Source: Siniperca chuatsi (taxonomy: Eukaryota > Chordata > Actinopteri > Centrarchiformes > Sinipercidae). From it: DNA of 64,000 bases. Every line of letters starts with the position of its first letter. The first letter of the stretch is position 1. The stretch is taken from the NCBI RefSeq assembly GCF_020085105.1, contig NC_058060.1, positions 7,881,398 through 7,945,397 on the forward strand, read 5' to 3'. Both the position numbers and the translations under genes were made by a program. This document shows positions 8,281 through 63,815 of the stretch, in pieces. The notes under the pieces are model-generated. The model saw only the letters and a list, made by a program, of their open reading frames with translations, was not told the origin of the DNA and searched no databases.

Positions 8281-8349
8281 TATGAAGTGACCATGAAGAC
8301 GCAACCTTCTGATCTGGAGTCAGACGTGCTACCATTGCACCACAAGGTC
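8281..8349 (-). pseudogene. tRNA-Trp-derived pseudogene
   Basis: Read on the minus strand from 8349, the sequence follows tRNA-Trp closely through the D arm, the anticodon arm (CCA kept) and the variable region. It then loses the T arm and the acceptor 3' strand. Most differences from the intact copy at 41012-41083 are C-to-T or G-to-A at former CpG sites, as expected for methylated decaying DNA. It cannot form the acceptor stem and is presumed non-functional. Confidence 0.8.
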
Positions 8350-10462: not shown

Positions 10463-10534
10463 GATTTTGTGATGCGACGGTAGGATATCTGACTCCAGAT
10501 CAAACGGCTGTATGTTCAAATCATGTCGAGGTCA
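10463..10534 (+). pseudogene. tRNA-Trp-derived pseudogene
   Basis: Exactly 72 bases long, the length of tRNA-Trp, and alignable end to end with the intact gene at 41012-41083. It retains the anticodon loop gactCCAgatc, the T loop GTTCAAATCA and the 3' end GTCGAGGTCA. Mutations in the 5' acceptor strand (GATTTTG instead of GACCTCG) break the acceptor stem, and the anticodon stem is damaged, so it is probably non-functional. Confidence 0.75.
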
Positions 10535-13205: not shown

Positions 13206-13305
13206 AAAGCACCGAAGGCTGTGCTGCAAGGTTAAATCTAATGAGCTCAGTGTTCATCGACGAGTGAATTAGGGACACAATTAAGGCAGGGAGAGTACAA
13301 ATTTC

Positions 13306-14290: not shown

Positions 14291-17200
14291 ATTTCAACTA
14301 ACACAGCTTATGACTCTGGTTTCTAAAACTAAGCTGATGATTGATGCAGTGTTGCTGAAGCCTACTCCATAGTGGATTCTTTTATTTTATTTTTTTTAGC
14401 CAATCTGAATGCCACAATGATCAATATGTGGTGAAAGCTTATGTGCTCCTTGACTACAAATTTGAGCTTAGAAGAAAGCAGATTTTGCCTGGTTTTGCCA
14501 AATAATGAATGTCTAAGAAAGACCTGAAACTTGGCCATGGATCAACTGAGATCCGAAGGGGGAGTTTTTGGGAACACTGAGGCCAACAGGCTGAAAAGAG
14601 GTGATGAAAGTTTAAGTGCCTTCGGGCACTCTGTCATTTGCTGGGAAATTTGTTTGGTTGACAGACAGAGGGTTGAAGCTGACAGTGAGAAACCGGCTCA
14701 ACCAGATCATTTACCTGCACCTAACAGCCAATACACGGAAACACACGTACACACACACACACACCCACACACTCTCTCCAGGACTACATTACCACATGCC
14801 GAAGCAAAAGCAAACATTCATCTGTAAGGAAGTTGCAGTGTCTGACACATGTACTACAGGTGGAGGATGTTTACATAGCCTTGCTTTGTAGAAGTATTCA
14901 AATTCATTAGTACACAAGTAGACGCACACACAAACACTCAGAGGTCTTGTTCTGTCAGAGGTACATCAGGCAGCAGACTCTGTGGTGTAATGTGATCAAA
15001 GATACCTAACACCAACTGCCAGTCAGCCTTCTCTCTGCTAAGAAAAACCTACTGAGCCAGTCACTTTGTGCAATAGCAAGGATGTAAAGACAAAAACCCA
15101 GTGAAACCTCCAGTAGAGTCTCTGTACAGAAATTAACGCATATACCTTAAAGGGGTGCTCCACTACTTGTAATGTATATCTTAGGCCTATCTTGAATGTT
15201 ACTTTTAAGTAAAACGTTTTAACTACAACCAATCCTGGTCAAGAAAAAGCCTCTTTATGCTTACAGTAAAGCTCTGACTGTTTTCAAGAGTTACTACAAT
15301 ACCCAGCAGGCCCAGACCATTTCTTTATTATAAAACGAGGATAGACATTTTTAGCATTCAGAAACAGCAATCTTCTATCCTGCCAGTTCAAAATACATTC
15401 CCTCCTGTGTACAGAGAATTCAGAGACTGCAGCTATCATTTCTGGTCCCCATCTTTTAGGCACATGTTTTGGAGACGTGAGAATTTGTTTTCAGGAAGCA
15501 GATGCTATTTGCAGGCTGTCTCCTACCCTCAGGCATTACTGATCACTGATCATAGGGTGTGACATGGCTGGCCTGTCAGTGGCAACTCAGCATCCTCGCA
15601 GCCTCAGAAAACAGATGAGCAGAAACCCATCTGTCATCAATCTACTGTAACTCTACTGCAACAGGAACACCCAACCATGATTCCTCGTGACATCTTCAAG
15701 TCAGCCTAAAGTGTCTCTCAATTGTTTTTGGGGAGTGGAAATGATAGCTGAGCAGGCTGACTTTCACTATTCAATGTTGTTATAAGACACAGAAGTCTAA
15801 GACTATGAGTCAGTGTCCTGCAGAAACGTAGCAAGGTTTTTTAAATACTGAAATAACTGGTTGAGATTTCTCCGACTGCAGCACATTTTCACATTTCCAA
15901 TTTGATCCAACATGTTGTACCCACAGTGTGAAATACAAACTCAAAGTTAAATTTAAAGTCATTATTGGGGAAAAAAACATGTTTGTAATGAATTCTTACC
16001 ACACAGAAAGGTCAGGACAAACACATGAACGCACTGTGACCGTCCCCTGATTTCACATTTAAATAGTTCCCATGTCTTTCAGCCGCACTTCCTTAGTCTG
16101 TACCGAATGACCCCATTTCATGGTCCAAGCAACAACTAATCATACCGCAGCATGTTCTGTGACCAGAAAAAATGTCTGGGCAGGAAATTACTCTGCACAG
16201 ATAAACCAGAAATTTTACATATTCATCAGTCAAATTCTCCCAACCAAATCTCTCTGTTGGCCATCAAAACCAGATGTGCTGAATTTACGACTCATTTGCA
16301 AAAACACGGTGTCATACTAAGTTGAAAATGAAAATGTGAATAGTAGTCCAGTCTACCCATGAGCCCACAGCTTAGTGCTTTGGGATGAGCTCGTAGTTGG
16401 TGCATGTTTTTAAACACCAACCTGCTTTCTTCTGCACTTGGACTGGACACCAGCACCTTTGTATCTATCAGCCTATTTACACTAAATGCACAAAAACAGG
16501 GAAATGCCAGCAATTATATATTTTTTATGATAAAAACAAGACAAGATCATTGGATTCCTGAGATGTTTGTACTGTTGCCGGCTTTCTTCTCACAAACACA
16601 GGTGAGTATAAAACCAACATCGTCAAACAAACAACATGAAATCACTATCGTTATTAATCTGCCAGAGCACCAAAGCAGACTGCAGTCAGATATTAACCTT
16701 TCAAGTGGAGCTATCCTTGCAGCAAACCAGTGTCAAGATGGCATTTCTTTGTGTGATGTGGCTCTCCTTAGGTGTCCATGAGACAAACCATTCATCATGC
16801 TATTGCACCTCTGGGCGCACGTCAATTCAAATCAAAGGCATCTCAGTCAACGTGACAAAAAGACTGAGTCATCTCTGAATCGTTTTTCTCATGAAGAACT
16901 TGGTAGCCTTGGGCTGCGATCGCATAATTGTCCTTGTCGAGGAGCAGTGAAGAACTAGTTCACTTACTCAAAAGGCCATGCACAGTGAAGCTACAGTCAA
17001 GGTCAAACAGCAATGCTCTGTGTTACGGTAATAACAAACAGGACAAACGGCACCAGCAAACTAAAACTAGACGATGCGTGCATATCAAGAGAATTAGCGG
17101 ATTTCTGCCATAAATCTTTTGTCTGTAGGCTGTGGGAATTTTCAGCAGAGGGTCCAAAGTGAGAACTTTCAACATCAGTCTCATTCATACGTGATAGGAC

Positions 17201-23552: not shown

Positions 23553-23950
23553 CGGATTTCAAATGAAACGACTATGAGGTTAAATTGCTAACTTTCAACT
23601 TTAATTTGAGGGCATTTGTATCTTTAACGGGTGATCGGTGTAGGAAATGTAGACCCTTTTGTGCATAGTCACCCAAATTTGAATTGGACAGATTATGTAA
23701 CATACACTTCAATACAATCACCGCATTTAATATTTGGTTACAAATCCTTCGCAGTCTGAGATGGACGTCTCCAACCCACAGATATATCAGACACTTGATA
23801 TCTTTCCTGTTGACGCTATGTCGGGCCTGTGCTGCAGCCAGCATCACCTCTTGCTGTATGTTTGGGATCATTGTGCTTCACGGTCCACCAATCCTGCACT
23901 GTTCATCCAATATGAATGGGAACACTTTCAAACACCCTTAAAACTGGAAG
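23553..23950 (-). mobile_element. Tc1/mariner-type DNA transposon remnant
   Basis: The segment resembles the terminal part of a widespread teleost Tc1/mariner-class element: 'actatgaggttaaattgc...tttaatttgagggcatttgtatc', then 'atttaatatttggttacaaatcctt-cgcagtc' and 'tgtatgtttgggatcattgtgcttcacggtcc'. The last portion corresponds to the region encoding the transposase on the opposite strand. It is internally deleted and frame-broken. The boundaries are approximate and the family call is from memory. Confidence 0.5.
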
Positions 23951-27052: not shown

Positions 27053-28948
27053 GGTGCAACCGTCGCGAGACCACCGCAGAGCGAACTCTGTGTGCAGTTT
27101 GACAGCTGCACGGATTAACCACAGGATTTTATTTTAGTAGGCCAGACATGCGATTTTAGATTAAATTAAAAAAAAAAACTAAGCTACTATTAAATCCATC
27201 TTTTGGCCGTGAACTGCCAAGGAAGCTATCTTAAAAGCGACCCGTGTTAAGCGACGTATATATTTGTATGCAAACCATCTGGCAACAATGGTAACACGTA
27301 TGAGTGCTGGGATTATCCCTGATCAATCAGACAGTGAAAGGCAGTTCAAACAGAGGTGTGTTGAGCTTGTATCCTACTCCCCTGTTGTCATTAAGTCAGT
27401 GAAATGAAGCGGCCACACAGTAACTTTCCCCTGTTGTAATATTACAGTAAAAGACGCCTCTTTTTTGTATTTTTTCATAAAATGAGGTCGAGCTGCAGTC
27501 CTCACTAATGATACTCAAACTCAGTTAATTCTTCGTGAGCTCTTTGTGAAGACATATCACACGAGAGGGAGCGCTGTTGTTCTGAACATGAGACCGCAGG
27601 CCGAGCGTCCGAAGAAGAAAAGGCCCAGCGCTGTTGTACTGTAGCCTACATCAGCACTCACGGGATGCCTCTTCTCCAATCAAATAACTTGGTCGGGACT
27701 AACTGCTGTATAATAGAATCAGATATTTTTTGTTACATTATAATGTCAGCCATAACAAAAAACAACTTGTGCACTTTTAAAAGAAGGGTTAAAGCAATAT
27801 TGTGTTGCTGTCAGCTGCAGCAATATTATAAAACTCATGTGACCTGTGTGTGATTATATCTTCCTGCAGTCCAAAGGTCTTTGATACAGGAGTTAGTGTT
27901 GACCCAGAGCCAAGTGTTCTCCAGAGGGGAAGCCTACACTTCTACATTTACAGTACCACTCCATGGATCAATGGGCCAGTCGCCTCCATTCTGCTGAACC
28001 ATGGAAAACCATCAAGCACTGGTAAACAGAGGAGTGAATGTGTGTGGGTATGTGTATGTGATTGCTAAGTGTGTGTCTAAAGAGGAAGTGCACTTCAAGC
28101 AATGCATCTCTGAGGCTACATTTCCAAACTACTACAAAAACGTGTGGATGTAGCCTGAGTCTGCTGAACCCACATCTGCCATCACTGTACTCTCACACAG
28201 GATTTCACCAAAAACCTGTCTAAAGGTCACTGAAAGGCCTTCTCTCTGAAACAGAGAACCTAGGTTTTCCGACGCTGAAACACAGAAAAGAAATAACTTG
28301 GCAAAACCGCCGCGGGTTTCATCAAGGTATTCCAAGCCCTTGAAGAGGAACTGCAGCATTAACGTGACTCCAATGGTAATACCACCCACTGGCAAAGAAG
28401 GGAAAGCGCTGTCACTAACCATGGAAACAGTACCAAACTTTAATTCATTCATTAGTCATTTAATGGGCTTTAAAGTGCAGCCACTAGAAACCCACAAAGG
28501 GAAAAGCAATCAGTGTCCTAGTCAGGCCCCATTCAAATTTGGCATAGGGGTTTCACACAGTCATGCGTTCTGTCATTTAATAGATGAAACTTGGATGAAC
28601 TTAAAAACTTTTTTTGGTCGGCATGTAATTGCAAAGGGCAGCCAGTGTAAAAAGCAGGGCTCCTCCACCATTAGACATGGGCCTATTACCACTCTTTCCT
28701 GTGTTATGAGACATGAATGCACACGCAAGAGATTAAAAATGTGTTTTAAGTGTCAAACAGTGAATTTACACTAGAGTAAATGGCATTTGTAACTCGTGAA
28801 TAACTAATAGTCCTGCTGGGACTTAAAATGTGTATGCAGTAGCCAGTTTATTATGTTTTTGAAGATTAGATTTGATGTGTTTTGATCTGGTTGCACACAT
28901 GTTTGTTTTTTTGTTTTTTTACTGTGATATTTTAAACTGCAGTGTTGG
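27051..28948. other. Intronic DNA; unassigned open frames near 28.1-28.8 kb
   Basis: A 158-codon open frame (28298-28774, plus) and an overlapping 106-codon frame (28132-28452, minus) lie here, unusually long for this AT-rich intron. Neither translation resembles a family I know, and no splice or Kozak context is convincing. They may be chance frames or a GC-richer conserved noncoding element upstream of pard3 exon 1. Confidence 0.35.
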
Positions 28949-37939: not shown

Positions 37940-38215
37940 AAATGAAGACTTTGTAGTGGCCTAGACAAAGTCCTGACCTGAATCCTATTGAGATGCTGTG
38001 GCATGACCTTAAAAAGGCAGTTCATGCTCGAAAACCCTCCAATGTGGCTGAATTACAACGATTCTGCAAAGATGAGTGGGCCAAAATTCCTCCACAGCGC
38101 TGTAAAAGACTCATTGCAAGTTATCGCAAACGCTTGATTGCAGTTGTTGCTGCTAAGGGTGGCCCAACCAGTTATTAGGTTTAAGGGGCAATCACTTTTT
38201 CCTACAGGGCCATGT
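37940..38215 (+). mobile_element. Tc1-like transposase C-terminal remnant with 3' end
   Basis: The plus-strand frame reads SPDLNPIEMLWHDLKK, then ...NVAELQRFCKDEWAKIPP..., ending ...KGGPTSY at a stop (38176-38178). This is the C-terminal end of a Tc1-family transposase, including the last catalytic-domain region (PDLNPIE). It is followed by 'ggggcaatcactttttcctacagggccatgtaggtttggatt', the usual 3' terminal region. Everything N-terminal is missing, so the element is dead. Confidence 0.9.
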
Positions 38216-41011: not shown

Positions 41012-41083
41012 TGACCCCGACGTGATTTGAACACGCAACCTTCTGATCTGGAGTCAGACGCGCTACCGTTGCGCCACGAGGTC
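41012..41083 (-). tRNA. tRNA-Trp (CCA)
   Basis: Read on the minus strand, the 72-base sequence is GACCTCGTGGCGCAACGG... ending ...AAATCACGTCGGGGTCA, which I recognise as identical to the vertebrate cytosolic tRNA-Trp. The acceptor strands GACCTCG/CGGGGTC pair with a G-T wobble. The anticodon CCA lies in ACTCCAGAT. The D loop (A box) and GTTCAAATC (B box) are intact. A TTTT run follows within a few bases (from 41005 downward) as a Pol III terminator. No intron is present. It delivers tryptophan at UGG codons. It sits about 1.6 kb downstream of cul2 and is the only intact member of six tRNA-Trp-like sequences here. Confidence 0.96.
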
Positions 41084-42633: not shown

Positions 42634-52605
<9,972 letters not shown>

Positions 52606-55640: not shown

Positions 55641-55888
55641 AAAAATCATTTAAAATAATAAAAGGATAAACCTCTTTAAGATACTGGTAAGAGGAGGATT
55701 AAGGGGTGGCAAAGCAGATAGTGGCAGCTCAGGAGCAACTCATTTAATTGTCTTACTGTACCTAACATTGGCTTATATCTCTGTTCTTTAGGTACACATG
55801 AAAACCCTAACTCTAACCCTCTCTAATCCCTAAGGAGAAATCAGAGTGAGCACCCTGATCAGCAGCCTCAGTCAGCGTGCCTGTCACA

Positions 55889-55985
55889 ATGAACCAAGTG
55901 AAGACAGATGAGAAATATCAGCCACACGCACGTGTGCCCAGCGTTCACGCACCTGTTTACCAGCAAACCAGCCACAACCAGTGCC
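55889..55985 (+). CDS. crem: Candidate CREM upstream coding exon
   Basis: An open frame from the ATG at 55889 encodes 32 residues and ends in phase 1 at a strong donor (GCC|GTAAGC). Its end, HAPVYQQTSHNQ, resembles the human segment PTSIYQTSTGQ that precedes the Q2 domain, and the phase fits the next exon. An acceptor at 55791 (tctgttctttag) gives about 97 bases of leader containing a short upstream frame. It has no PKA site. The similarity is short, so the call is tentative. Confidence 0.45.
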
Positions 55986-58900
55986 GTAAGCATGTCTGAA
56001 AGCACATTTCCTAGCACAGTTTGTCCTATTACTGCTACTACGCCTACTACCTCTTCTACTACCATCACTACAGACGCAACAACGTCTGCTGTTGTTAAAG
56101 CTAGGGTAGGTAACGTCGGAGAAACTGGCAAGAGACAGGTAGATTTTGAAGAAGTATCCAACCGAAAAAAAATTCCACCCCCTCCCTTCAGGCCCTCCCT
56201 CCAAAGCCACTCCCCCAAAAGACATTTTCATGCGCAATGAGTGCACTAAGGGCAGAGTGCGCGCAGGTAGGTAGACGGGAAGGAAATGATTGGAATATTA
56301 CAGGCATGTGACAGCCACAGATACCGATAGAATTTCAACAAATCTAACAAAAAATGCTTCTGAAATACATTACCCACCCTAGCTTTAACAGTGCTACCAC
56401 CACTACTGTTAATAATAATAATAATTCTAATAAAGCAAGTAGACAGATTAACATGAAAACTGTATAGAAAGCGACTTTACGTCTGAAATAACTAACTTAG
56501 CATTAAAACAAGCTTACAGATACACTGCCGCCGCCACCACACTCCCGGCTTATAAAGTTGTTATGGCGAATGCTTTATTAAACAGTTGACTATGTTCAAA
56601 TGCAGCAGACACAGAGCAACATTATCATCCCATTGGAGTTGTGTTTCTGTCCACCTGACGAATGTCAGTCCAATATTCTCCTTTTAGCTCTGTTTCGGAC
56701 TTCACTAACTCCTGAGGGAAATACTTAGGTCTTTAGATAGCCAAACAACGGCCATTTTTTTGTGTCTGCCATTTGGTCCTGCTAAATTATGTAATATAAT
56801 GGACATACCCCTATATAAGGGGTTTACAGACCCTGCTTAATGTTTCGCAAGCACGTGTGACCCATCATGACTGATGATGTAGTTATTTCAAAGTTAAAGT
56901 CCTTTGTCATGAAGCATTATGTTGCTCAGCATTGAATCATTGTTCACGTCTTCTCATTTAGGCTTGCGTATTTGAGAAAGTTACGTCTTGCACATTAATA
57001 AACTGTTGCATTAAGAACATTACTGTATAAAAAAAAAGAGTTTCTTTGATTGTTGCCACAATCACAGATGAATTAAATTGCCTATCCTATGATTATTTTA
57101 CTATTTTACCCTCCCAGATGGGTTTTTTCAAGGAGGTCCTGTCAAGTTCCTGCCTGAGGGGACACAGAACCTGCCTTCTGTGGCCATGACCAGCACACAA
57201 ACACCACAGCCTCTGTCAAGCACCCTTCAATACTACGGGGAGACGCTGAATTGCTCGCAGCACTATTGCATGCTCCCACTGCCAGGTAACACTTGATAAA
57301 CAGACTTGTGTATACTATAGAAGCGTCACGACTAATGCCACTGCAGCATGCCGTTTAAAGGTTAGCACTGTTTCTTCACAGCAAGAGGGTCCGGGGTTGG
57401 AATATTTGCCTTGCATAGGGTGTGCCCTTTCTTCTTCTGTCTGTGCAGTTCCCTCTGAGTGCTCCAGTGTCTTCCCCCATCATAAAACAAGCCTTTTCAA
57501 GGCAACGACACTCCTGCCATTGCCTATAACCAAGGCGATGTTCTCAGAGCTGCATCTTACAATTGATAAATAATGTCATATTAATCTTATTCTAGCGTAA
57601 GAAAGAGGTAAGAAACGTTGATGTGGCCATAATCACAACCAGGTTGTGTAGAAAAACCCCTGATCTGTTATTATTTACTTGGTACCCTTACCTTTTTAAC
57701 TACCTAGTCGGATTTTCTCAAGCAGGTTCCGTCAGGTTCCTGCCTGAGGGGACACAGAACCTGCCGTCTATGGCCATGACCAGCACACAACCACCACAGC
57801 CTCCACCAAGAACCCTTGAGTACAACGGGGAGACGTTGGATGACCCGCAGAAGAAGGGTAAGCCAACATGACCGGGTGACACCTGACGTCCAGACCACTG
57901 CATCTAAGTAATTTAGGATGGGCAGCAAACAAGTGTAGAAGACAAGAACAGTGTCAGTTGCTCGGGGTTAGTAAAGCGAAAACGGCAAAAAAAGAAAAGA
58001 AAGTGTTCTAAGGTTCACTAGTCAAATGTTAAACCGACAGGTTCAGTTAGTCAAACCCTGTATGCTGACTTTGGGACTAAACAAAGACGAATGCCTTTTT
58101 ATTCAGTATGATTTCATTTGATCCCACTGCAGTGGTGGAATGTAAGTAACTACATTTACTCAAGTAGTGTACTTAAGTACAAATCTGAGGTATTTGTACT
58201 TTACTTGAGTATTTCCACTTCTCTTATACTTATAACTGTAAATGTAGTGGAGTAAACAGTGCAATATTTCCCTTTGAATTGTAATAGACTATATTACAGC
58301 TGTAGTAACTAATTCCAGATTAAGATTTTACATACAAAACATATGATGAGCTTATAAAATACCAGTATGATGCATACCTCCCTTTATATAACTAATAGAA
58401 TAGAAAAATTTGCTCCACCTCAACCAACTACAATAGTAACATGCTGCCTAAATACCCCCAGTGGTGGAAAGTAACTAAGTACATTTATTCAAGTACGTAA
58501 TGCCTTTAGTTACTAGTAACTTTGCAGATTCAGATGAATAATACAAAATATAATCGACAAATCAATTATTAATTATTATTATAGATTAAGATAAGACTTT
58601 ATTAACCCCTTGTTGAAATTCACAAGCTACCAGAACGTATAGTAAAAAATAAGCTCTACCTTTAATAGCTGCAACATTAAAGTAATGTACGTATTCATGC
58701 ATCAATAATTATAATTCAATAATATAATATATATTATATTATATTATTCTGCATAGTGAGTACTTTTCTTATTGATGCATCAATAATAATAATAATATGA
58801 TATACAGTAGAATATAATATTTTAACACTCACAGGGGCCATTTGAGTACTTTTACTTTTGTAGCGTAGTAGAGTATTTTATAGTGTGGTATTGCTGCTTT

Positions 58901-60096
58901 TACCTTAACAGAACGTTGGTCCTCTGTTTCCCTCTGTAATACCTGCAGAGGGAGCCAGCTCCTTTAGCTCTGAGTATGAAAGGAATCAGTTGAGAGCTAA
59001 TGTTTTGCTGTGACAGTGCACTGCATATACATGCACATAATAACCCGGCTGTATGAGTAACCTGGCTTTATAGTGTCGCTCTTATTTGGATTAAGGTATT
59101 CACGTGAATGTTTTACACCCAGTGAGCCTTCCTTCGACATGCAGTGAAAATGCAGTGTGTGTGTGTGGTGGTGGTGGTGGTGGTGGTGTGTGGGGGTGGG
59201 GGTACTGTGATAATACTGTGGTAATAAAACCATTTTTGCAACGACTTTCATCAAGATATACCATTGAGATTATAGCCATGAAAATACACAAAATGTTATC
59301 AAATCCCTATTTCTGGTGTAAGTTTTAAACCGTAAAAAAAAAAAAAGGGGAGGGGGGGCTTGAGTGATTGTGGAGCTAAAGTCCAAATCATCTGTGCCTC
59401 TACTGACTGTCCGTCTTCAACAAGTCGCGTTCTTCAGTGTTGTGCGCTCCAGTCCAGCTGAAGAAAATTCCTTTCCAAAGACAAACAGCAGAGCCCCTGA
59501 CTCATAGCGCTGTGTCGGGGGAGAGAGCGAACCATACTGTTGACATCAGGAGGCCAGTGATGTCATGGTGATGTCAATGCCTCTAATTGTAAATTGCACA
59601 CATAGCCTTGCTGTTGGCTGTGGTAACATTTCAGTCAGAGAGAAGACACTGAAGGGGACAGTTTCTCTTGGAAAACCTTGGGAGTAGATACAGTATGGCT
59701 GTAACTGGGGATGAGACAGAAACAGGTCAGTTTGCTATCATCTGTTTTTACTAAAAATAGGGATTTTTTTTTTTTTTTTACACTGTTGTTCAGTTGAAAT
59801 ACTCATTTAATACTCTCAAAATATAGTTAGTGATTGTTGACATTAATAGTCAGCATTGAAATTGAAAAAAATCCTGATTATTGGGATTTGGCTTTTTAGA
59901 CATTATGTATTTGTTTGTATTTTTTTTTCCAAAACCACTATTAGAAAGCTCAGTAATGCCATCAAATAACATCACAAGTAGGCTGCTCTGAAAAAAGTAG
60001 CAAAGGACCGTTGAAAACTAATTTTCCACAGTCAGCAGCAACAAGCTTACCCCGATAAGAAACATTTTCACAGGGTCTGCTTGTCTCTCAGTCATC

Positions 60097-60146
<50 letters not shown>

Positions 60147-63100
60147 TCCCTCTCCCTCTCTCTCTGTGAAATGCTTCAATGCTCTGCCCACTCAGAGCAC
60201 ATAGCAGCAGGAGCTGACGTCGCTGCTTTTCCTGGAACAGGCCCCCAGCAGCGTCATGTAAATCCGAACCAGCGAATAAGATGTGCATTGACGTCAGTTG
60301 CTGGCCACGCTGCGATTATATGCTGTTTCCTTTGCGTTTCCAACATATCACAGAATTAATCATCAGTGGGTTACATGATATGAGGGGCAATGAACTGAGG
60401 GGGAAGTAGATAAGAATGGCACCATCTCTCAGTGTGTATTCCTTTCTTTTTCAGTGTCACACACCCATTTGATAAGATAAAAGAAGAGAGAATGAAATGT
60501 GGAATTCAGTCACTTACACTTTCTAATAATATCTATTTATTATTATCTATTTAGCACAGCCGCATATGCGATCCTGCATTTCACAGCACACACTGAATGC
60601 GCATGTGATAAATTAAACCTTTGAAATCTTGAAAACCTGGACTCTGTTTAAACTTCAGTGGATTTACAGTATGGTTTGGTTGCCCTCTCTGAAACAGTCT
60701 AATGGAACCTCTGAGAATAAGAGCTGGTTTATGAGAGCAAAAGTCATATGCGAAAAGGTTATGCGTTACAGGATTATTTAGGCTTGTGTGTCATAGTTTT
60801 ATCTGTCACTAAATTGAAAATAATAGACATGCTGACTGACTGAGTCGGACTAAGCTGTCGCACCAGATCTTCATAAATTCAAACTAGTTATAAGTGTTTA
60901 TTAAGTGAAGAATTGCCCATTACTAATTATTACTAATTTAATCAAAACTTAATTTAAAGGATGCATCACACAAACTAGTTCTTATGTAGAGATTAGTTGT
61001 TAATAATATTTACACCCAGTATGCGCCCGGTGATACTGTTGCGTAGCTAACTGACCAAAATGACAAAACTGACATTATAGTAGCTTGCTAATATCTGGGA
61101 TATGGTCGACATATCTATCTGAATAATGATGTAAACTGGGAAGATTTTAAATGACATTTTACAAGAAAAAAACCAACAACACACAATATACTTGAAGTTA
61201 CAAAATGTTACGCTAATAACTTTAGCCGCAATGACCTAAAGTAGCACCAGTTAGGTTAGCATAATCAGATATTTCCATGTATGCATAAACAAATCAAAAT
61301 CACTTGGCCCCCTAAAGCTGTTGTTTTTTGCAGTTACGTTACAGCTTGCGATGCTCTAGTGACTTCCTGGTTACATAGTGAATTGCTTGATTGGACGGCG
61401 GTACAGTTGTTTTTCTAGCAACCGGTTTACACATTGCTTAAGGCTTTTCAAACTATTTCAAACATTTCTTAAGTTTTATTGGTGTAACCCAGTTTAGTAA
61501 ATCACTAGTCTGAAACTAGCTAGTAGTTACTTACAACTTCAGATGGACTTTACACACGTGCTTCGTAATAGATTTACAAATACCAATATCCTGTGTTAAT
61601 ACTCCTGTGCAATATACCCTTTTCAGTTTAAAATTCCCTATTTATTGATATTGAAATTTATCCATACCTCTATTACTGCTGTGCAATATCCTCCGTCTCA
61701 TTATAATCTTAATAAGCTACACTTAACTTGGCAGTTCATGCACTATTACTGTATACCGTATTATTATCATCAACCGGTAAACCCACTTTGTACTTCACAC
61801 TTATTTTATTTTATACTTATACCCACTTGGTACTTAATTTATTTTCTGACCTGTATTATAGCGTATTATATATATTTTTTTGCTTAGAACTTCTATTCCT
61901 CTGTGACATGATAGCGAGCTGCTGTAGCAAAAGAGTTTCCCCTCGGGGATCAGTAAAGTATTTCTGATTCTGATGAATACCAACCCAATCCCGTTGTCTG
62001 ACATGTTGTTTTGTGTCTCCCCAGGCACCGCAAGTGACTTGACTGCCTGCCAGCTGCGTAACCCCAGCTCCAGCCTCCCACAGGAGGTGGCAGGGGCCAG
62101 CGCTCATAGCTCCCACAAACCTGTAGAGGACGCCTTACAAAAGAGGGAGCATCGCTTGATGAAGAACAGGTAAAGACCAGGACCATTCACACTCATCAGC
62201 TTGGACATTAAAATGCCCGGACGGTAAATCAGCCATACCGATATTAGCAGCCGATATTAGCTATATTAGGTATATTGGCATCAGTTAAATGGTGGCTCAT
62301 AATTAACATGAAATTGCAGTATAGAATGCCAAAGATAGGTCCGACATATTTTTAAGCAATACTGCACTCAGCGTTTTGGGAAAACACGCTTGTTTGCTTT
62401 CTTGCTCAAGAGTCAGACGAGAAGATCGATACCACTCTCATGTCTGCACGCTAAATATGAAGCTACAAGCCGGCGGCCGATTAGCTTAGCTTAGCATAAA
62501 GACTGGATACAGGGGGGAAGGCACCCACTGCACCAGCAGCTCTGAAGCTAACTAATCAACATGTTATATATTGTTTGTTTAAGAATATCTCCGTTACAGA
62601 GTTTTTCCAACAGAGAGCACTGACAAGCACTGCCATGTAAAATGTCCCACTCAATACATGTCTTGGTTACTAAAAACTAAAGGGATCCTTACCACAAGTT
62701 TCTAAGTTCTAAGTTTATGTGAAAAAATTAATATCGGCCAATATATTGTTAGAACTCTCAAATATGAATATCGGTATTGGCCTTAAACACATCAGTCTGG
62801 CTCTATTGGACACAGTCACTGCATACCTTCTTCCAGTGCCCTTTCTGCTGTGTAATGTAACACAAACACCAAGTGACAATTAATGACATTAACTGCACGT
62901 AATAATAAGATCTACAAGCCTATCATCATTCCACCGTGTGACTCTCCTCCATCCAGTGGGTTTAGCTGCTAAATCTTAAGTTGTCTGACCCCCCCATTAT
63001 CTGGTCTGTAATGTTTGGAGTGAAGAGTGAGTAGGCTGACACGACCAACCTTGTGTTTGGAAGTAGGTCAGTTGTATGTGGAGAAGTCTGGTTTGCTGGT

Positions 63101-63815
63101 GCGCAAAATTGATTACCTTATGCTTGCCTTTTGCTTGCTCTCTGTAGAAGGCTTTGGGCTTACCGTGTGTTTGCTGTAAACACTGTTGTGTCACTACTGG
63201 GGCGTCCCGGTAGTTCACCTGGTAGAGCGCGTACCATTAATGGCTGCCTAACCTGTCTTTATCTGCAGCTGTCACTGTCCAATAAAGGCAAAATGCCCCA
63301 AAAATGTATCTTAAAAACACTTTATTTCCTCCCACATGATTATTTTACTACGGTCAATCATCATTGAATCGTTTTGGATGCTTTTTAAAAAATTATTATT
63401 TGTTTTTTGGTTTTAGCATCCTCCTCCTTTGGTTGACTCTATTTTGTTAAGTTCGATCCCGAAGGTATCTAATGTCACAAACATGTTCATAATCATCACC
63501 ATCTAAACATTCTGTGCCCACATGAGAAAACCTTTTGTAATTTTTGTAACGTGAGCCTTCTTTTTCCCCTTGGTGCAATCTGATTTATGGCTAGAATCAC
63601 TTCTCTGTTGTATCTGGGAGAAAAGCCAAGAGGGCTTCTTTTTCACGGTAACTGTTGTTGTCGCTTCCAGGGAAGCCGCCCGGGAGTGTCGACGAAAGAA
63701 GAAGGAATATGTGAAATGCCTCGAAAATCGCGTGGCTGTGCTCGAAAATCAAAACAAGACTCTGATTGAGGAGCTCAGAGCCTTAAAAGACATATATCGA
63801 CACAAAGTCGAGTGA
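55889..63815 (+). CDS. crem: CREM-like bZIP transcription factor (P1-type model)
   Basis: CREM is a cAMP-responsive bZIP factor that binds CRE sites as homo- or heterodimer. The model joins 55889-55985, 57118-57285, 57708-57857, 62025-62169 and 63671-63815: 705 bases, 234 codons plus stop, every junction GT-AG in phase 1 except the last (phase 2). The bZIP (basic region KNREAARECRRKKK; leucines of the zipper up to DIYRHKVE) is diagnostic of CREB/CREM/ATF1. Adjacency to cul2 and the ICER exon identify CREM. The upstream part is unusual: a duplicated exon replaces the usual glutamine-rich Q2 region, and the kinase-inducible domain (RRPSY) was not found. The start at 55889 is the least certain point; earlier exons may exist. 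The bZIP ends in the DBD II form. Confidence 0.7.
56095..56388. mobile_element. MITE with 19-bp TIRs at TTAA sites
   Basis: The left end TTAAAGCTAGGGTAGGTAA and right end TTACCCACCCTAGCTTTAA are inverted repeats with one mismatch. TTAA at both termini could be a piggyBac-style target duplication or part of the repeat. It has no transposase. It interrupts a degenerate CTA/ACC trinucleotide-rich stretch 110 bases past the candidate crem exon donor. The 110-codon frame at 55908-56240 runs into it and is therefore not a conserved gene. Confidence 0.85.
57118..57285 (+). CDS. crem: CREM Q2-like exon, copy 1
   Basis: Acceptor ctcccag at 57117, donor CCAG|GTAAC, 168 bases, phase 1 at both ends, open throughout. 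The translation (GFFQGGPVKFLPEGTQNLPS..., VAMTSTQTP..., STLQYYGETL...) loosely matches the human Q2 order AQGGTIQI - GLQALTMTNSG - TIVQYAAQS - QQFFVPG. It is about 80-90% identical at DNA level to copy 2 over the central 120 bases. Confidence 0.65.
57358..57490 (+). mobile_element. Dispersed teleost repeat fragment
   Basis: 'gttagcactgtttcttcacagcaagagggtccggggttggaat' through 'tctgtgcagttccctctgagtgctccagtgtcttcccc' is a diverged copy of a very common teleost repeat module. It sits between the two Q2-like exons. Confidence 0.55.
57708..57857 (+). CDS. crem: CREM Q2-like exon, copy 2
   Basis: Acceptor ctacctag at 57707, donor AAGG|GTAAGC, 150 bases, phase 1 at both ends. The translation runs GFSQAGSVRFLPEGTQNLPS, then MAMTSTQPPQPPPR, then TLEYNGETLDDPQKK. 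It is proline-rich in the middle and ends earlier than copy 1, with an acidic/basic DDPQKK tail. Splice phase allows copy 1, copy 2, both or neither to join the downstream exon in frame. Confidence 0.65.
58130..58440. mobile_element. 'cagtggtggaatgtaagtaac' teleost repeat
   Basis: It starts 'gcagtggtggaatgtaagtaactacatttactcaagtag', with self-complementary 'caagtagtgtacttaagtacaaatctgaggtatttgtactttacttgag'. This is the terminal part of an abundant teleost hAT-like non-autonomous element. Confidence 0.7.
58458..58870. mobile_element. Second copy of the 'cagtggtggaaagtaac' repeat
   Basis: The left end 'ccagtggtggaaagtaactaagtacatttattcaagtac' matches the previous element. An inverted-type end ('gagtacttttacttttgtagcg') occurs near 58845. 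The interior is AT-rich with AATAAT repeats. Confidence 0.6.
59155..59203. repeat. (GT)n(GGT)n repeat
   Basis: A GT run followed by GGT units and G-rich sequence, upstream of the ICER promoter. Confidence 0.9.
59541..59576 (+). promoter_or_regulatory. crem: CREM P2 (ICER) promoter: three CRE-like octamers
   Basis: TGACATCA (59541-59548) is followed by TGATGTCA (59558-59565) and TGATGTCA (59569-59576); the last two are spaced 11 bases start to start, one helical turn. They lie about 120 bases upstream of the ICER ATG. In mammals the intronic CREM promoter P2 carries clustered CRE-like autoregulatory elements (CAREs), through which cAMP/CREB induces ICER and ICER then represses itself. The same arrangement here supports conserved cAMP induction with negative feedback. 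Confidence 0.85.
59695..59725 (+). CDS. crem: ICER-specific first coding exon
   Basis: The frame reads MAVTGDETET and one further base before donor AAACAG|GTCAGT. The human ICER exon begins MAVTGDDT, so this is the inducible cAMP early repressor start. Phase 1 matches the exon at 62025. The ICER product would be 106 residues: this exon plus the two bZIP exons, without activation domains, acting as a dominant CRE repressor in the nucleus. Confidence 0.9.
60099..60166. repeat. (CT)n repeat in a CREM intron
   Basis: A CT run with a few CCCTCT interruptions, about 400 bases after the ICER exon. Confidence 0.95.
60167..61639 (+). other. crem: CREM intron without recognised feature
   Basis: Between the ICER exon and the LINE-type segment I see no further exon, RNA gene or named repeat. 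Confidence 0.45.
61640..61975 (+). mobile_element. LINE-type 3' region with tail
   Basis: An AT-rich segment containing 'cactattactgtataccgtattatt' and 'tctgacctgtattatagcgtattat', closing with 'tttcccctcggggatcagtaaagtatttctgattctgat'. That is the conserved 3' tail of a widespread fish non-LTR element. It ends about 50 bases before the next crem exon. Confidence 0.55.
62025..62169 (+). CDS. crem: CREM exon with start of the basic region
   Basis: Acceptor tctccccag at 62024, donor AACAG|GTAAAG, 145 bases. It encodes TASDLTACQLRNPSSSLPQE..., corresponding to human ATGDMPTYQIRAPTAALPQG..., then a Ser/His-rich linker and DALQKREHRLMKNR, the N-terminal part of the DNA-binding basic region. It is shared by CREM and ICER isoforms. 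Confidence 0.92.
62371..62590. mobile_element. Left-arm fragment of the long-TIR MITE
   Basis: 'cgttttgggaaaacacgcttg' through 'ccgattagcttagcttagcataaagactgg' matches the left arm of the element at 25371-25777 and continues into its typical 'aactaatcaacatgttatat' interior. The right arm is not seen. Confidence 0.75.
63199..63304 (+). mobile_element. tRNA-derived SINE, internally deleted
   Basis: The head 'ggggcgtcccggtagttcacctggtagagcgcgtacc' contains a Pol III A box typical of a common percomorph SINE. The tail 'cagctgtcactgtccaataaaggcaaaatgccccaaaaa' is its 3' end. The middle with the B box is missing, so it is a dead truncated copy. Confidence 0.8.
63671..63815 (+). CDS. crem: CREM terminal bZIP exon
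   Basis: Acceptor cgcttccag at 63670. The frame encodes EAARECRRKKKEYVKCLENR..., the leucine zipper, and ends ELRALKDIYRHKVE before TGA (63813-63815). All basic-region DNA contacts (N and R residues of KNREAARECRRKKK) are intact. The ending matches the mammalian CREM DBD II (LYCHKVE) rather than DBD I. The 3' UTR continues past the window. Confidence 0.96.

Follow-up and report, generated by a model that had tools for sequence, protein, structure and literature searches.

A tandemly doubled Q2-like exon in a crem gene of Siniperca chuatsi that has no detectable KID

A Q1-KID-Q2-bZIP layout is described as conserved from hydra to human in the excerpted text of PMC11333461. Together with excerpts of PMC10454534, the same text assigns the constitutive role to Q2, which contacts TFIID/TAFII130, and the inducible role to KID (PMC11333461, PMC10454534). 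Among the matches listed in the open-licence PMC literature, the excerpts describe neither a doubled Q2 exon nor the loss of KID in a fish crem. The window analysed here is the whole 64,000-nucleotide (64 kb) stretch of Siniperca chuatsi DNA, and it holds a crem gene in which a Q2-like exon stands twice in tandem.

The gene is CREM, judging from its gamma and bZIP exons, its neighbour cul2 and an ICER-type exon, and the crem assignment made in the earlier note was upheld on these grounds. The gamma and bZIP exons were placed by tblastn with CREM proteins, the bZIP is of the CREB/CREM/ATF1 type (PF00170, 68.4 bits) and matched CREB1 bZIP structures, and cul2 adjoins the gene head-to-head on its upstream side, CUL2-CREM being the order that we take to hold in human. 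The gamma exon is accompanied by an ICER-type MAVTGDE exon with a phase 1 junction, and between F and gamma lies the Q2 domain, here in two copies. The neighbour and the framing exons are:

52471..52590, minus strand: first coding exon of cul2 (40 residues used), the head-to-head neighbour upstream of crem
55834..55985, plus strand: exon F equivalent, likely start ATG 55889, MNQVKTDEKYQ...NQC, ending in phase 1, from tblastn with Perca P0007 and Micropterus P0001
62025..62169, plus strand: gamma/H exon, in every modelled isoform, from the exon model and tblastn
63671..63815, plus strand: bZIP DNA-binding exon with the stop, from CREB1 bZIP structures and PF00170 (68.4 bits)

The acceptor of exon F at 55834 was placed from the models of relatives. 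Because the first coding exon of cul2 begins at 52590, about 3 kb is left for any crem exon upstream of F. The teleost genome duplication would have given two crem paralogues, the window gene being one of them; when a second, KID-bearing crem was looked for (147 candidates considered), no percomorph name with a pKID domain was present among the matches listed.

Several KID-less percomorph CREM models (P0002, P0016, P0018, P0022, P0025, P0027) carry an alternative, highly divergent second bZIP half, for example DSARKYRKKKKDHMDELQTR, which is perhaps the old second DNA-binding exon of CREM. No such alternative exon was found in the 64 kb, where the alternative ends of seven relatives clearly match the known bZIP exon alone (best E 7e-8 to 8e-5, next best 0.039), and it may lie beyond 64000. 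Elsewhere in the window there are a tRNA-Trp gene (41012-41083, minus strand, 67.6 bits) and weaker tRNA matches at 8288-8349 (minus strand) and 10463-10534 (plus strand), the latter possibly tRNA-derived repeats.

The two Q2-like exons are:

57118..57285, plus strand: Q2-like exon copy 1, phase 1-1, full-length tail YCMLPLP; Q2 profile 23.9 bits; groups with percomorph copy 1
57708..57857, plus strand: Q2-like exon copy 2, phase 1-1, short charged tail DDPQKKG, donor AAGG/GTAAGC; Q2 profile 16.9 bits; groups with percomorph copy 2

These exons are a genuine tandem duplication. The repeat finder (seed 14) returned direct copies at 57098-57305 and 57688-57895, 208 nt long, 76% identical and spaced 590 nt apart, the distance given in the earlier note, and it found no other direct-repeat family of 80 nt or more within the 64 kb. 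The local alignment of copy 1 with copy 2 runs for 163 nt without gaps, and over 48 aligned codons 23 of 144 nt differ (84% identical, gapless). Outside the exon, on both sides, matches number 14/20 in the first 20 nt and 6/20 in the next, so that homology is lost by about 20 nt. The encoded units share 33 of 47 residues (z = 30.8, 200 shuffles). Both copies are open, as had been claimed, the coding frame being free of stops in each and every other frame holding one to three per copy. Copy 1 is 168 nt and copy 2 150 nt long, both with phase 1 at either end in the exon model, as the earlier note had it, and a 422 nt intron separates them; adjacency, homology and identical phases are those of a tandem-duplicated exon pair. 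Further downstream, a 37-nt motif occurs twice (89% alike) within 58130-58495 and is presumably a dispersed fish repeat.

The proposal that either copy, both together or none at all could be included was confirmed at the level of reading frame, since in the exon model F+1+2+H+bZIP, F+1, F+2 and the form with neither copy all reach the common stop in frame. The two copies can stand together because both exons are symmetric. An obligate mutually exclusive pair, with a single copy per transcript, would follow a frequent behaviour of tandem homologous exons, as described in excerpts of PMC9013439 and PMC9741552; it is scarcely credible at this locus, where joint inclusion keeps the frame (168 and 150 nt), the intron between the copies measures 422 nt, and 26 protein models of relatives hold both copies. 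Annotated models of relatives include both copies (P0007), copy 1 only (P0020) and copy 2 only (P0032, Oreochromis aureus). The contrast is found within a species only in Perca fluviatilis, where P0007 with both copies and P0020 with copy 1 come from different annotations; across species an absent copy may have been lost rather than skipped. The Q2 exons are presumably used in Siniperca chuatsi.

The likeness to Q2, first offered as a loose alignment, became considerably firmer. A Q2 profile built from 22 single-Q2 CREMs scored 23.9 bits on copy 1 and 16.9 bits on copy 2, both above all of 920 shuffles (top score 7.7), and in tblastn the Q2 of gar CREM matched copy 1 at E = 7e-4 and copy 2 at E = 0.059. 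Both duplicated exons are, on these scores, homologues of the Q2 activation-domain exon. Among percomorph units, 17/46 exceed 7.7 bits with the canonical profile, the others being too divergent for direct recognition. The statement that known vertebrate CREM has a single Q2 also stood, within a mostly tetrapod set: each of the 72/198 proteins with an intact KID (SRRPSYRKILNEL, exact) matches Q2 once and only once at 8 bits or more (72/72), the set containing several isoforms per species and some proteins that trained the profile.

The 3' ends of the two exons had been described as diverged. That the tails differ is correct; simple divergence does not describe them, since the donor of copy 2 (after 57857) lies 18 nt upstream of the donor homologous to that of copy 1 and a TGA sits between the two.

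57858..57895, plus strand: sequence that once formed the 3' part of copy 2, with its flank; now intron, holding an in-frame TGA at 57869-57871 and then a donor homologous to that of copy 1 (57875/57876, GTGACA); Etheostoma spectabile has one model with the short end (P0022) and one with the long (P0027)

Read further in the window, copy 2 would give KKGKPT*PG, which this TGA closes, and this is why copy 2 uses the upstream donor; as that donor preserves the frame, the charged tail reflects a change of donor. Copy 2 of Perca ends in PQKNDMPALPG, and in Etheostoma spectabile it ends in CLQKN spliced to gamma in one model and in CLQKNSKPALPG in another (P0022, P0027).

The distribution of the doubling was determined in 46 hand-picked proteins and the window, with a leave-kin-out profile for each copy and 100 shuffles per protein. 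Besides the window, 26 models from 23 other species hold both copies, at separate places, and 13 models hold one (13/40 of the KID-less family proteins). A second unit is missing from all 7 outgroups, of which P0167 and P0198 give weak single matches barely above their own shuffles. Decay of these segments in close relatives, which the earlier note had named as the observation that would count against functional exons, was not seen in the 26 two-copy models from 23 species, protein models of relatives being prone to favour open frames. Eupercaria, Carangaria, Pelagiaria and Ovalentaria all contribute two-copy species, among them Thunnus and Kryptolebias, whose placement was looked up.

The units sort mainly by position and not by species. 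Window copy 1 has copy 1 as its better partner in 18/22 other two-unit proteins and the other copy in 4/22; window copy 2 pairs with copy 2 in 17/22 and with the other copy in 5/22. For 8/23 two-unit proteins the likeness between the units does not clearly exceed that of 200 shuffles; P0002, P0025, P0027 and P0035 also have two units and lay outside this 23-protein comparison. A tree of 30 units and 6 outgroups, which took 15/23 two-unit proteins and 6/22 single-Q2 sequences and omitted P0015, P0017, P0018, P0022, P0024, P0034, P0041 and P0050 as more divergent or near-duplicate, groups by copy, with copy 2 of P0014 falling among copy 1 and copy 2 of P0021 unplaced. Window copy 1 stands within a group supported at 96/95 and window copy 2 within one at 87/75. 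Many forks are without resolution because just 56 columns were retained. When the window copies were constrained together the log-likelihood was 34.6 lower (p-AU 0.012), and the copy-specific tails are common to the window and Micropterus. The comparison indicates that the duplication is old and common to percomorphs; most simply, a single duplication event would predate the split of the sampled percomorph lineages.

Low synonymous divergence at first suggested a recent lineage-specific duplication, which was ruled out by the tree and the copy-specific tails. A duplication private to the window lineage, with second units elsewhere of independent origin, would suit the 84% DNA identity over 144 nt, the 17/19 identical four-fold sites and a unit-unit score in the window that tops the 23 two-unit proteins compared; with the tails shared by copy with Micropterus, the units grouped by copy and the window copies rejected as sisters, it is very improbable, and gene conversion of the core would account for the identity. 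At the four-fold sites common to both copies, identity at 17 of 19 has P = 0.00036 for a match probability of 0.5 and P = 0.046 for one of 0.7. Taken with the old age drawn from the tree, this agreement points to sequence exchange between the copies: their core has probably been homogenised by gene conversion, with the 3' ends remaining independent.

KID and Q1 were sought across the whole window. The KID regions of 8 CREMs (six intact, together with Salmo and Esox) gave a best tblastn E of 0.36 in the 64 kb, and the Q1 regions of 4 CREMs a best E of 0.32. No pKID match was found across the three plus-strand frames of 53.8-58 kb, where the single family listed, GILT, is unrelated and under its cut-off, and the precomputed pKID domain is absent from the window protein's 30 best relatives. 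A hidden KID was also rejected: short-motif matches in the 64 kb are scattered and single (RR.S[YFH] at 14554 and 34402, SYRK at 38119, NELS at 13240, SRRP at 62468, and RRPS at 27595 on the plus strand and at 23770 and 43905 on the minus strand), with no second KID motif alongside. The 38119 region also contains an open frame, which from its motif we take to resemble a Tc1/mariner transposase fragment. Of the marks of an inducible activator, namely a KID with the RRPSY phospho-site and a Q1 domain, neither was found in the window gene; as the KID with RRPSY is absent, the gene is not classed as a PKA-inducible CREM activator.

Relatives suggest how KID was lost. Megalops, with an intact KID, scores 69.2 bits for pKID, Salmo 13.1 and Oncorhynchus 14.8 (cut-off 25), and there is no match in Esox, Osmerus, Aplochiton, Perca, Pseudochaenichthys, Micropterus or the window. 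RRPSY is altered to RRQPY in Salmo and RRQAY in Oncorhynchus; the salmonid proteins P0167, P0182 and P0181 show the phospho-site changed variously (RRQPY, RRQAY, RRQTY) with Q2 well conserved, a possible intermediate stage in the loss of KID. The corresponding stretch reads RRPCRRNQSDTPP in Aplochiton and RRNQSDQQPQ in Perca. In the window, 55833-55874 encodes RRNQSEHPDQQPQS in a frame differing from that of ATG 55889, and in Perca P0007 the stretch equivalent to RRNQSEHPDQQPQS is joined in frame to MNQ; the window stretch is probably a remnant of the KID region with its frame broken. This stretch aligns weakly across relatives, and the decay series is one that we infer from it. The relatives so ordered suggest that Q2 was doubled after a stepwise decay of KID.

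Downstream of the Q2-like exons lies a candidate internal promoter with an ICER-type first exon:

59541..59576, plus strand: three near-CRE octamers (59541, 59558, 59569; TGACATCA/TGATGTCA) upstream of the ICER-type exon, candidate internal promoter
59695..59725, plus strand: ICER-type first exon, coding part only (MAVTGDETET), ending in phase 1, from the exon model

The start of Dicentrarchus labrax P0126 ('cAMP early repressor I') is identical to that of the window exon. The near-CRE octamer pattern occurs 14 times in the 64 kb, with 0.03 expected in 150 bp; none of the three octamers is a full TGACGTCA CRE, the nearest of which is at 60289, downstream of the ICER-type exon. A 5' extension of this exon (59631-59694) matches the relatives' version in two different frames in the window and is open to MAVTGDE in the models of Micropterus, Scatophagus and Pempheris (P0001, P0033, P0037).

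Selection on the two copies was estimated from their comparison. The NG86 estimates are dN 0.174 and dS 0.197 and those of YN00 dN 0.212 and dS 0.125, giving dN/dS of 0.89 (NG86), 1.7 (YN00) and 0.87 (LWL85), with a bootstrap value of 0.88 (0.39-2.80); by segment, dN/dS is 0.091/0.141 for codons 1-31 and 0.346/0.326 for codons 32-48. The comparison of dN and dS between the copies, proposed earlier as a check, thus gave a ratio near 1, and purifying selection is not demonstrated. The N-terminal half of the protein evolves fast and the bZIP is nearly invariant. Neutral evolution was simulated in 4000 runs per exon, with the indel rate fixed at 10% of that of substitutions; the probability that both exons stay open is 0.0009 once 0.2 substitutions per site have accumulated and 3e-5 after 0.3.

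These figures bear on the reading of the exons as relaxed remnants, slowly decaying and rarely spliced in, in a KID-less paralogue where ICER alone matters. A dN/dS of about 1, a rapid N-terminus beside a near-invariant bZIP, as expected if ICER alone matters, the broken frame of the KID remnant, the stop within the old end of copy 2, the single copy in 13/40 models and the many ICER-only percomorph entries of about 106 aa among the matches listed all speak for it. The simulated probabilities speak against it, as do both copies being open in 26 models from 23 species, though such models favour open frames, and we regard relaxation as unlikely.

The reading that we prefer, and hold to be likely, is that of an old percomorph doubling of Q2 in a KID-less, cul2-linked crem, with the two exons as optional cassettes and ICER alongside. 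The doubling would have taken place in a paralogue that had probably lost its Q1 exon and KID beforehand. The gene would make an ICER-type repressor from the internal promoter, giving cAMP-inducible repression, and longer proteins in which F is followed by one or both Q2 copies and then by gamma and bZIP; the symmetric phase-1 ends would allow 0, 1 or 2 Q2 units with the remaining protein unaltered. The long proteins would bind CRE as other CREMs do, without activation by PKA through KID, and would act mainly as CRE-binding competitors beside ICER, and the number or choice of Q2 units would tune a weak constitutive activity against a mainly repressing background. A more far-reaching version, in which percomorphs rebuilt CREM by dropping KID and doubling Q2 so that splicing of 0-2 units replaces phosphorylation, beside a cAMP-inducible ICER, is conceivable and rather doubtful. 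A large fish clade appears to carry a CREM without KID and with a doubled Q2, natural material for the classic question of how Q2 acts alone once the CBP-recruiting switch has been lost. Should the exons be in use, reporter assays could test copy-number splicing directly.

Compared with CREM tau (Q1-KID-Q2-gamma-bZIP), the window gene shares the order of F, Q2, gamma and bZIP, phase-compatible cassettes and the cul2 neighbour, and differs in having no detectable Q1 or KID and a doubled Q2 exon. It resembles the CREM repressors (alpha/beta/gamma, S-CREM) and ICER in combining a CRE-binding bZIP with the lack of an activating domain, and it has an ICER-type exon and near-CRE sites; unlike those repressors, its long forms would retain one or two Q2 units, and KID is gone from the gene and not merely spliced out. 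In salmonids, pike, smelt and Aplochiton the divergent crem paralogue (P0167, P0187, P0194, P0198) has a decayed KID, shares the F-Q2-gamma-bZIP order and, in the models examined, also lacks Q1, but these models have one Q2, and some an alternative bZIP end. Tandem duplicated alternative exons elsewhere, as far as the excerpts of PMC9013439 and PMC9741552 describe them, are likewise adjacent, homologous and symmetric, whereas the pair in the window lies in a putative, probably disordered activation domain and both of its members can be included in frame.
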